Assembly: GCA_002688325.1 (NCBI GenBank) | Contig: NZCS01000025.1 | Location: forward strand, 1-37,062 | Length of the DNA: 37,062 nt | Source: an archaeon | GTDB taxonomy: Archaea; Nanobdellota; Nanobdellia; SCGC-AAA011-G17; ARS1178 | Reading direction: 5' to 3' | Part shown: one piece after another, positions 27,918 to 36,686 of the stretch | Layout of the letters: the number at the start of each line of letters is the position of its first letter | Numbering within the stretch: position 1 is the first letter of the stretch | Program-made: the position numbers and the translations under genes | The notes under the pieces: model-generated | Told to the model about the DNA's origin: nothing | The model's input: the letters and a program-made list of their open reading frames with translations, nothing else | Databases searched by the model: none

Positions 27918-28939
27918 ATGTTATTAGAAAGATTAATAGAAGCAAAAGGGGTTAGTGGTAATGAACATGAGGTTAGGAGTTTAATTCTTAGAGAAATTAA
28001 AAAATATGTTAAAAAAGTTAAAATAGATAAATTTGGGAATATAATTGCGAGTAAAGAAGGTAAGGGAAGTAGGGTGATGTTGGTTGCTCATATGGATGAA
28101 GTTGGTTTGATGATTAAAAGTATTAATGATAAAGGTGGGATATTGTGTTCTAGTATTGGTGGTGTTAAACCTATTTCATTAATAGGACAGAAAATTGGTA
28201 TTAATACTAAAAAAGGAAGATTTATGGTGTTATTAGTACTTCTTTGATTAGTGATGGAGAAGAAGTTGAAAAAATTCCTGAGATGAAAAATTTAATTTTA
28301 GATACTGGATTAACGAAAAAAGAATTGAAACAAAGAAAAGTTGAGATTGGAACTTTTTTAGAATTAGAAGATGATATGAGTTATTTGGGATGTAAGGATG
28401 TTATAGCTGGAAAAGCTTTGGATGATAGGGTTGGTTGTTATATATTGTTGGAATTAGCTAGAAGATTGAAAAATAGTAAAGCAAGTATAGATTTTGTTTT
28501 TACAGTTCAAGAAGAAATTGGATTGTATGGTTCTAAAACTTCTATTTATGAAATTGAACCTGATTGGGCTTTAGCTGTTGATGTTACAAGTGCTGATGAT
28601 TCTGAAAGACATTATCATGAGACTACAAAACAATTAGGTAATGGTCCTTGTATTACTGTTAAGGATTCGAAGATGATATCTAATGTTTGCATTGATAGTT
28701 GGTTAAAAGAGATAGCTAAGAAGAAGAAAATTCCTTTTCAATTAGACATAAGTGAAACTGGAACTACAGATGCATTAAGTATTTCTATGGCAAAAGGTGG
28801 GATTCCTACTGCCGTTGTTGGTGTTGCTGTTAGAAATTTACATACTGGTTTTGGGATTGCTAATTTGAAGGATATAGAGAATTGTGTGAAGTTGTTAGTT
28901 GGTTTGTTAAGAAATCCTCCTAAGAAGTGTATTGTTTAA
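27918..28939 (+). pseudogene. M42-family aminopeptidase with a one-base frameshift
   Basis: Two adjoining frames make one M42 metallo-aminopeptidase. The first (27918-28247) carries LLERLIEAKGVSGNEHEVR and LVAHMDEVGLMIKSI (first metal ligands). The second frame supplies ISTSLISDGEEVEKIP, KALDDRVGCYILLELARRL (bridging Asp), FVFTVQEEIGLYGSK (catalytic Glu pair), ALAVDVTSADD and the C-terminal His in VRNLHTGFGI. The shift falls at 28221-28224 (GGAAGATTTATGG): one more T would give RFYGVISTS in frame. All active-site residues survive across the two parts. Either a recent lesion, a sequencing error in a T run, or translational slippage explains it. Confidence 0.85.
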
Positions 28940-32373: not shown

Positions 32374-32383
32374 CTTTATAAAT
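32374..32383 (+). promoter_or_regulatory. TATA box of EF-2 gene
   Basis: CTTTATAAAT is centred about 26 bases before the ATG at 32405, so the EF-2 message is probably leaderless. The identical box occurs before the EF-1alpha gene at 34624. The box supports 32405 as the true start and argues against an initiation inside the second exon. Confidence 0.65.
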
Positions 32384-32404
32384 ACATTTTTTTCTTTTTA
32401 AGTT

Positions 32405-34608
32405 ATGGCAGAAGATATGACTACTAAAGTTAAGAGATTGATGAAAGATAGAGATAAAATCAGAAATTTAGCAATCGCAGCCCATATTGATAAAGAGACA
32501 AGTTAAATCTTACTCTTCAAGTTCATGGGAAGACTACCTTGTCTGATTCTTTGTTAGCTGGTGCTGGAATGATTTCGGAAGAATTAGCAGGTAAGCAATT
32601 AGTAATGGATTTTGCTGAGGATGAGCAAGAAAGAGGAATTACAATTGATTCTGCGAATGTTAATATGGTTCATGAATTTGAAGATGAAGAATACTTAATT
32701 AATTTAATTGATACACCTGGGCACGTTGATTTTGGTGGAGATGTTACAAGAGCAATGAGAGCTGTTGATGGTAGTGTAGTATTAGTAGATGCAGTTGAAG
32801 GAATGATGCCACAAACAGAAACAGTATTGAAACAATCATTAAGAGAAAGAGTTAAACCAGTTTTATTTATTAATAAAGTTGATAGATTGATTAAAGAATT
32901 AAAGTTAAAACCAGACGAAATGCAAGAAAGATTTATTAAATTAATAACTAATGTTAATAGGTTTATTAAACAAGTTGCTCCTGAAGAATTTAAAGAAAAA
33001 TGGCAAGTTAGTGTTCAAGATGGGAGTGTTGGTTTTGGTTCTGGATATCATAAATGGGCATTAAATATACCATATATGGAAGAGTCTGGAATTACTTTTA
33101 AGGATGTTATTGATGCTTATGAAAATGATAATTACGAAGAATTAGCTAAGAAAGCTCCTTTACACAAAATTGTTTTGAATCAAGCAATTAAACATTTACC
33201 AAGTCCAATTGAAGCTCAAAAATATAGAATTAAACATATTTGGCATGGAGATTTTGAAAGTCAAGAAGGTAAGGATTTAATTGAGTGTAATGAAGAAGGA
33301 AATGTTGCTTTTGTTTGTACAAAAATTGTAGTTGATAAACATGCAGGGGAAATAGCTGCAGGAAGATTATTTTCTGGAACTGTTAAACAGGGACAGGAAT
33401 TGTATATGAATTTAGCTAAGAAAAAAATTAGATTACAACAAGTTTTGATTTACAGGGGTGGACAGAAAAGTCAAGTTGAAGAAGTTCCTTCTGGAAATAT
33501 TGTTGGTTTAGTTGGATTGAAAGGAGTATTTGCTGGAGAGACAGTAAGTGAGACTGAAATAGAACCTTTTGAAGCTATTAAACATATTTTTGAACCTGTT
33601 GTTACTGAAAGTATAGATGTAAAGAAAACTGCTGACTTAACAAGATTAGTTGAAGTTTTGAAACAAGTAGCTAAGGAAGATCCTACTGTTGTTGTTGAAA
33701 TTAATGAAGAAACAGGTGAAAATTTAATTTCAGGAATGGGAGAGTTACATTTAGAAGTTATTGCAAATAGAATTAGAACTGAGAAAGGAGTAGATGTTAA
33801 TACTTCTGAACCCATTGTTGTTTATAGAGAAACAATTAATAAAGAGAGTAGAGAATTTGAAGGAAAAAGTCCTAATAAACACAATAAATTCTTTATTAAA
33901 GTTGAACCTTTAGATGATAATATTTATGATACTATAAAAGCTGGAGAATTAAGAGAAGGAAGAATTAAGAAAAAAGATAAAGAGACAGTTGAGAAATTAA
34001 AAGAATTAGGTGTAGATGCTAAAGAAGCAAGAAAGTATAGGCATATTTTCAAAGGAAATGTTTTAATTGATAATACAAGAGGAATTGTGCATATTGGTGA
34101 AATTATCGAGATGGTTATGGATGGTTTTGAGCAAGTTATGGATGGTGGACCATTAGCTAAAGAACCTTCGGTAAAGGTAAAAGTAAGATTGATGGATTGT
34201 AAATTACATGAGGATGCAATTCATAGAGGTCCTGCTCAAGTATTGCCAGCAATTAGAAATAGTATAAGAGAAGCTATGGTTGATGGTAAGGCTGTTATAT
34301 TTGAACCTTTACAATTGTTGCAAATAGAAGCTCCTGTTGAATTTATGGGAGAAGTTAGTAAATTAGTACAGAATAAGAGAGGACAATTGTTAGATATGCA
34401 ACAAGAAGGAGAACATTTAACTGTTAAAGCTAAATTACCTGTTGCTGAAATGTTTGGTTTGACTTCAGATTTAAGAAGTGCAACTAGTGGAAGAGGAAGT
34501 TTCTTTGTAGTTGATCAGATGTTTGAAAAATTACCAACAAGTTTGAGTGAAAAAGTTGTTGGTGAAATTAAGAAAAGAAAAGGTATAGCTGATGTTTCTG
34601 AAGAGTAG
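32405..34608 (+). CDS. fusA: Translation elongation factor EF-2, split by an intron
   Basis: EF-2 is the GTPase that translocates the ribosome. Exon 1 (32405-32491, 29 codons) ends ...RNLAIAAHID. Exon 2 (32524-34608) starts HGKTTLSDSLLAG and continues with QERGITIDSANVNM (switch I), DTPGHVDFGGDVTRAM (G3), LFINKVDRL (G4) and the EF-2 domains to domain IV MDCKLHEDAIHRGPAQVLPAIR. The diphthamide histidine would fall in that HEDAIHRGPAQ loop. Joined length is 723, normal for archaea. Without splicing the frame reads four more codons after Asp29 and stops, giving a 33-residue peptide. The frame at 32539 begins inside the G1 motif and cannot be the true start. The gene precedes EF-1alpha by 73 bases. 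Confidence 0.93.
32492..32523 (+). other. 32-base bulge-helix-bulge intron in the EF-2 G1 (P-loop) motif
   Basis: The RNA folds as outer helix CCCAT/ATGGG (32481-32485 with 32525-32529). The central helix is ATTG/CAAG (32486-32489 with 32518-32521; three pairs, one A.G mismatch). The three-base bulges are AT|A (32490-32492) and TT|C (32522-32524), and the inner helix is AAGAG/CTCTT (32493-32497 with 32513-32517) with a 15-base loop. Cleavage between the second and third bulge bases, the rule of the archaeal tRNA-splicing endonuclease, removes exactly 32492-32523 and joins GAT to CAT. The length is not a multiple of three and it contains an in-frame TAA. Confidence 0.92.
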
Positions 34609-36573: not shown

Positions 36574-36686
36574 GCCGCGGTCGCATAATCTGGTATTGCA
36601 CTAGCCTGGAAATAAACTTTTAGGTATAGAAAATGCTTGTGAGCTAGGCCCTTCGGGGCATCTCGGTTCAAATCCGAGTCGCGGCG
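36574..36686 (+). tRNA. tRNA-Ser(GGA) with a 30-base intron after position 37
   Basis: The acceptor is GCCGCGG with TCGCGGC (one G.U), the D arm GCATAATCTGGTATTGC identical to tRNA-Ser(GCU), and the anticodon stem CTAGC/GCTAG. The type II variable arm is GCCCTTCGGGGCAT, the T arm CTCGG-TTCAAAT-CCGAG, the discriminator G, without CCA. The anticodon loop reads CTGGAA, intron, A, giving CTGGAAA and anticodon GGA. A TATA-like TTTTTTAAATT lies near 36541-36551. Confidence 0.9.
36612..36641 (+). other. Intron of tRNA-Ser(GGA) (30 bases)
   Basis: The intron runs from A36612 to G36641. Loop bases CTGG face intron CTTG (C-G, G.U and G-C with one U.U mismatch) with bulges AA|A and TG|A, a relaxed bulge-helix-bulge. 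Removing it restores a standard 7-base anticodon loop. The left boundary can slide by one base with the same product. Confidence 0.8.

Follow-up and report, generated by a model that had tools for sequence, protein, structure and literature searches.

Predicted bulge-helix-bulge introns in the P-loop of EF-2 and paralogous translation GTPase genes of uncultivated archaea

Introduction

How can an intact translation factor be made from a gene whose P-loop is split by 32 nucleotides that include an in-frame stop codon? This question is raised by the EF-2 gene of an archaeal contig of 37,062 nt, analyzed over its whole length (hereafter, the window). Introns of cbf5 pre-mRNA are 16–44 bp long and show gain and loss; splicing has been predicted in other genes, though confirmed in none besides cbf5 (Yokobori 2009, PMC2738675). 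A 2020 study gives the cbf5 mRNA as the only additional bulge-helix-bulge (BHB) intron and describes BHB sites in a 5' UTR (PMC7714728). The first-pass annotation of the window regarded cbf5 as the established case and knew of none in EF-2, and these papers likewise name cbf5 only. A literature search for EF-2, DPANN, or Woesearchaeota in combination with BHB or mRNA introns found none; subscription papers were mostly outside its scope, and absence is not proof.

Results

The Interrupted EF-2 Gene

The gene and its surroundings contain the following features, all on the plus strand.

32375..32384, +: TATA-box-like TTTATAAATA, by inspection only, with the ATG about 25 nt downstream
32405..32491, +: EF-2 exon 1, 29 codons, ending AAHID; in-frame join to exon 2 by translation
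32492..32523, +: predicted BHB intron, 32 nt, phase 0, splitting Asp/His of AHID^HGKTT; protein and BHB boundaries coincide
32504..32506, +: TAA in frame with exon 1, four codons (KETS) past unspliced exon 1
32524..34608, +: EF-2 exon 2, from HGKTT to the stop; open reading frame with Pfam domains GTP_EFTU, EFG_III, EFG_IV, and EFG_C

From the ATG at 32405, exon 1 reads MAEDMTTKVKRLMKDRDKIRNLAIAAHID and continues into KETS and the TAA, so that unspliced mRNA encodes merely a 33-residue peptide. The frame resumes at HGKTTLSDSLLAG and runs to 34608, and the other 694 EF-2 codons are intact and conserved. When all deletions of 20–59 nt were tried, just two restored AHIDHGKTTLSDSLLAG, namely 32491-32522 and 32492-32523, the latter being the exact BHB cut. 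Thus, the insertion lies in a protein-coding gene and its exact removal restores the conserved frame, as in an archaeal BHB pre-mRNA intron. These results bear out the first-pass annotation, which had placed the end of exon 1 at AAHID with a stop four residues later, had proposed that excision of 32492-32523 restores AHIDHGKTT, and had noted that the structural rule and the protein give the same boundary. The spacing of the TATA-box-like TTTATAAATA suggests that the mRNA may be leaderless or nearly so. A search by EF-G domain IV for a second, intact EF-2 gene found a single copy in the genome, which is 72% complete, so a second one may sit on missing contigs.

Structure of the Predicted Splice Sites

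The BHB motif consists of 3-nt bulges around a central helix of about 4 bp, with cuts 2 nt into each bulge. In the window, its elements are as follows.

32481..32485, +: outer helix, 5' arm CCCAT, exonic; pairs with ATGGG 32525-32529
32486..32489, +: central helix, 5' arm ATTG; pairs with CAAG 32518-32521 as an outer-end A.G mismatch and 3 bp
32490..32492, +: 5' bulge AT^A; predicted cleavage after 32491
32493..32497, +: inner helix, 5' arm AAGAG; pairs with CTCTT 32513-32517; all five pairs covary among relatives
32522..32524, +: 3' bulge TT^C; predicted cleavage after 32523
32525..32529, +: outer helix, 3' arm ATGGG, exonic; pairs with CCCAT 32481-32485

On re-reading, the helices and bulges stood as first annotated. 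Their description as a textbook splicing substrate holds for the BHB layout and is slightly too strong for the central helix, which has one mismatch. In the minimum free energy fold (z = -1.74), the outer and inner helices form, but a 7x7 internal loop takes the place of the central helix; in a shuffle test, the window intron alone gives p = 0.017.

The fold alone proves little, because BHBs of such quality are frequent by chance, and we rejected it as proof. On the plus strand of the AT-rich window, 162 BHBs reach a similar standard (at least three of four central pairs, five inner pairs, and four outer pairs), or about 9e-5 per start/end pair; therefore, coincidence with one of the two protein-defined junctions has a chance of about 2e-4. 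The weight lies in the exact match of the BHB with the protein-defined junction, and the decisive evidence is comparative.

EF-2 Introns in Related Genomes

The N-terminal part of EF-2 was used as a query in 145 related genomes, and broken P-loops were then read in DNA. All sequences compared are metagenome assemblies. The P-loop is broken in many members of the order, and we found 23 predicted EF-2 introns, of which 20 belong to genomes of the order (nine families) and three to genomes outside it. Together with the introns in paralogous genes described below, all are 20–39 nt long and lie inside A/G-H-I/V-D-H-G-K. The insertion sites are distributed as follows.

EF-2, site A (AHID^HGK, phase 0), in the order: window, G056, G039, G071, G078, G033, G048, G068, G083, G047, G013, G030
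EF-2, site A, outside the order: G324 (22 nt), G401, G468
EF-2, site B (between the first and second bases of the Lys codon): G026, G038, G008, G044, G023; one base later in G063
EF-2, site C (within the Ile codon or immediately before it): G049, G054
aIF2-gamma, site D (within the His codon of GH^VDHGK): G071, G073, G033, G040, G093, G064, G070, G068, G042

Both presence and absence of the insertion are seen among relatives, and the absence is exact. About 50 genomes of the order have an uninterrupted EF-2 P-loop, as do nearly all of the 41 genomes sampled elsewhere in the class. Exact empty sites occur within a genus (G010 versus G039, G043 versus G083), and G068 and G025 form another intron-bearing/empty pair of one genus. 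Among named records, Candidatus Woesearchaeota MAGs are closest, and one of them, JAGVZK010000013.1 (G078), has a site-A intron. Thus, the single intron of the first-pass annotation is part of a recurrent, order-wide phenomenon.

Covariation and Reading Frame

The helices are conserved by compensatory change, as in BHB pre-mRNA introns. In nine site-A introns, standard pairs occupy 86% of pair cells, and the covariation score is 0.508 versus 0.181 +- 0.034 for shuffles (0/500) and a slid maximum of 0.212; all five pairs of the inner helix change on both sides. For eight aIF2-gamma introns, the score is 0.360 versus 0.144 +- 0.038 (0/500), with central TTGG/CCAA invariant. A covariance model of site A (R1) matches the window at 32468-32547 with 81 bits. 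Deviations from the standard layout occur: the 3' bulge of the G071 intron has 4 nt, and sites B, C, and D mostly combine good central helices and intron hairpins with an outer helix that is weak or missing.

Excision restores the frame in all 32 introns tested, each of which holds, at one to six codons from its start, a stop in the exon 1 frame; the length is not a multiple of three in 22 of the 32. The combined shuffle p is about 2e-45, for introns that are phylogenetically not independent. Exon codons also differ: those that allow CCAT/ATGG pairing, and so favour the outer helix, are found in 10 of 13 site-A genes versus 3 of 30 intronless EF-2 genes (p = 3e-5).

Introns in aIF2-gamma and aIF5B

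Model R1 also matched the aIF2-gamma gene of G083, at GHVD^HGK, and a protein scan of the order followed by DNA reading yielded nine further aIF2-gamma introns at site D, making ten in total. With a second model (R2), built on eight site-D introns, we identified one such intron of 20 nt in the aIF5B gene of G044, and scanning aIF5B revealed no further clear case. EF-1A, which has the same GHVDHGK motif, served as a negative control and showed no insertion in about 85 genomes. Overall, we predict 34 introns in 29 genomes. Thus, candidate introns recur at several P-loop positions of three GTPase genes, with repeated gain and/or loss.

The genome of the window has two EF-1A genes, G000:C25:34682-35164 and C34:10682-11164, about 80% identical. 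Contamination of the bin is 2.9%, and one of the two may be foreign or a duplicate.

Inteins and Phylogenetic Distribution

The same P-loop hosts inteins (PF14890, one with LAGLIDADG_3) at HGK^TT, in EF-2 of several relatives (loci L044, L049, L050, L051, L052, L057, L058, and L066) and in aIF2-gamma of G028 and G042 (L149 and L150). An intron and an intein, the latter a few codons downstream, co-occur in the EF-2 genes of G047, G013, and G030 and in aIF2-gamma of G042; the named records JAGWAC010000024.1 (matched to G030) and JACPNF010000040.1 (matched to G013) carry both in EF-2. Within the P-loop intein set, the host motif of G057, G072, G011, and G070 is AHIHHGK, not AHIDHGK. In two aIF5B frames, G102:C45 (928 aa) and G100:C47 (1181 aa), matches start near the P-loop; these are probably inteins.

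On an EF-2 tree from 124 columns, 10 changes are required at site A for 10 rows, and well-supported branches force four or more of them; because resolution is low, the tree was used just for patchiness. The introns of the window and G033 are identical at 25 of 32 positions by inspection, and their helix changes are compensated, suggesting that some introns share an origin.

A 460-aa ORF (L159:2502-3884, minus strand) lies directly upstream of the intron-bearing aIF5B of G044; by eye, it has LAGLIDADG-like blocks, two in number, and a winged helix at the C terminus. A homing-endonuclease call for it was dropped, as it gained no support from Pfam, NCBIfam, PDB, or BLASTP against an EF-2 intein, which gave no family match other than weak HTH hits.

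Splicing Machinery and tRNA Introns

Genes for both an EndA-type endonuclease and an RNA ligase, which BHB pre-mRNA splicing calls for, are found in the genome. EndA has 189 aa and both Pfam domains, and its nearest match by sequence is M. jannaschii EndA (1a79); its Tyr, His, and Lys are spaced like the known catalytic triad. The ligase is RtcB. Several tRNA genes of 103–122 nt found with Rfam are intron-bearing; Rfam was used because ARAGORN missed the intron-bearing tRNAs, including one in the window.

36574..36686, +: intron-bearing tRNA-Ser(GGA), Rfam tRNA match, anticodon by inspection
36612-36641, +: its 30-nt intron, placed canonically (37/38); the BHB has a single central mismatch

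This tRNA shares the BHB layout of EF-2, with one central-helix mismatch in each, and provides an internal comparator for EndA substrates. Elsewhere in the genome, G000:C31:19668-19788 (L179) is tRNA-Gly-like with seemingly two introns, one with a T-arm BHB, by inspection.

Another split gene of the window encodes an M42-type peptidase (27918-28939; ...KKGRF / GVISTSLISDGEE...). A BHB intron was considered for it and rejected: by inspection, a 1-nt frameshift at about 28240 seems to account for the break.

Discussion

The 32 bases are almost certainly an archaeal BHB intron in EF-2 pre-mRNA, to be cut by EndA with the exons joined presumably by RtcB. In the proposed mechanism, exonic CCCAT/ATGGG and intronic AAGAG/CTCTT would clamp the short central helix between the two 3-nt bulges; EndA, the tRNA-splicing endonuclease, would cut once per bulge, at AT^A and TT^C; and the ligase, presumably RtcB, would join the exons to give AHIDHGKTT in frame. 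Cleavage and ligation in the cell are thus predicted from sequence comparison. Three points speak against BHB splicing: the central mismatch of the window, the lack of a good outer helix at sites B–D, and the alpha4-type EndA. An EndA of this type is often said to require a canonical BHB; the tRNA-Ser intron of the window likewise has a mismatch.

Other ways of reading through or around the insertion fit the data poorly. Programmed translational bypassing over the 32 nt, stimulated by the hairpin, would resemble that of T4 gene 60, with which the insertion shares a stop soon after the take-off codon (here a presumed one) and a hairpin in the gap. However, gene 60 needs identical take-off and landing codons, and GAT stands at the end of none of the 13 listed site-A introns. 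Moreover, most junctions at sites B–D are in phase 1 or 2, inside codons, and a hop from codon to codon cannot join these. The covariation and the BHB cut positions fit EndA, and bypassing is very improbable. An assembly or sequencing artefact might be suspected in metagenome assemblies, and the window does have the frameshifted M42 peptidase gene; it is refuted by recurrence, since 23 independent genomes, as well as paralogous genes, share the insertion region and its covarying helices. A decaying pseudogene is at odds with the intact remainder of EF-2, and either version of this explanation is scarcely conceivable. Group I and II self-splicing introns were rejected, as their catalytic core needs hundreds of nucleotides and the introns here have 20–39. 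An intein was likewise rejected for the window, where the insertion has 32 nt with an in-frame stop and no Hint splicing domains.

Two further proposals are compatible with BHB splicing and concern its origin and role. The introns may be mobile or selfish passengers spread by homing in a hot spot shared with inteins, instead of being just handed down and lost, a proposal that is less likely than not. The patchiness of site A on the EF-2 tree argues for mobility, as do the inteins at HGK^TT of the same genes, some with a LAGLIDADG domain (four genes carry both), the presence of a site-A intron in both EF-2 and aIF2-gamma of one genome, and the similarity of the window and G033 introns despite their different families. 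On the other hand, the introns are very short and code for nothing, the sole neighbouring homing-endonuclease candidate has no nuclease family match, and an ancestral intron lost repeatedly would look patchy too. It is possible, though less likely than not, that the P-loop of EF-2, aIF2-gamma, and aIF5B is a common insertion hot spot in the class, where BHB introns and inteins are alternative and sometimes stacked; that the introns are, or recently were, mobile between paralogues and genomes, possibly through trans nucleases; and that translation-factor synthesis depends on tRNA splicing. The other proposal takes EF-2 transcript splicing for a regulatory switch coupling translation-factor supply to EndA/RtcB activity. 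Every tested intron, if kept, halts translation within six codons, and introns occur in three translation GTPases and are absent from EF-1A; however, many close relatives are intronless and loss seems tolerated, making a switch unlikely. The EF-2 intron as such may tie translation capacity to tRNA splicing, and if splicing is limiting, translation-factor supply would be linked to tRNA maturation.

These data enlarge the list of archaeal mRNA introns, for two decades essentially one gene (cbf5), by predicted introns in EF-2, which is essential and conserved universally, and in two of its paralogues, across many uncultivated archaeal genera. As a consequence, gene callers and marker-gene pipelines likely miss or truncate these genes. 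With 34 introns and empty sites in sister genomes, gain and loss, the specificity of EndA on mRNA, and the relation of BHB introns to inteins become testable.

Comparison with Known Systems

The closest parallel is provided by the crenarchaeal cbf5 introns (Yokobori 2009, PMC2738675, and a 2002 report cited there), which are similarly short (16–44 versus 20–39 nt here), have BHB sites and protein-coding exons, show patchy gain and loss, and are easily missed by gene prediction. The introns described here differ in affecting EF-2, aIF2-gamma, and aIF5B of DPANN archaea (Woesearchaeota-type) and in recurring at several nearby positions of one motif, some beside inteins. Splicing of cbf5 is linked to hetero-oligomeric EndA, whereas EndA here is a single alpha4-like gene. 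Introns of archaeal tRNA and rRNA share the endonuclease motif, as in the tRNA-Ser(GGA) of the window, whereas the EF-2 intron lies in an mRNA and its outer helix is built of codons. In the H. volcanii HVO_1309 mRNA, EndA also cuts at BHB sites, but these lie in the 5' UTR and create no junction within coding sequence (PMC7714728). P-loop inteins (aIF5B model NF011418/PRK14845 and the EF-2 and aIF2-gamma inteins) interrupt the same GTPase motif within a few codons and must also be removed for function; unlike the introns, which would be removed as RNA, they are removed as protein and encode splicing and often homing domains. Thus, archaeal BHB pre-mRNA introns are already known from cbf5; new are the genes, the DPANN lineage, and the P-loop hot spot shared with inteins. 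An ordinary mechanism, the BHB splicing by EndA and RtcB predicted here, is found in a surprising place.
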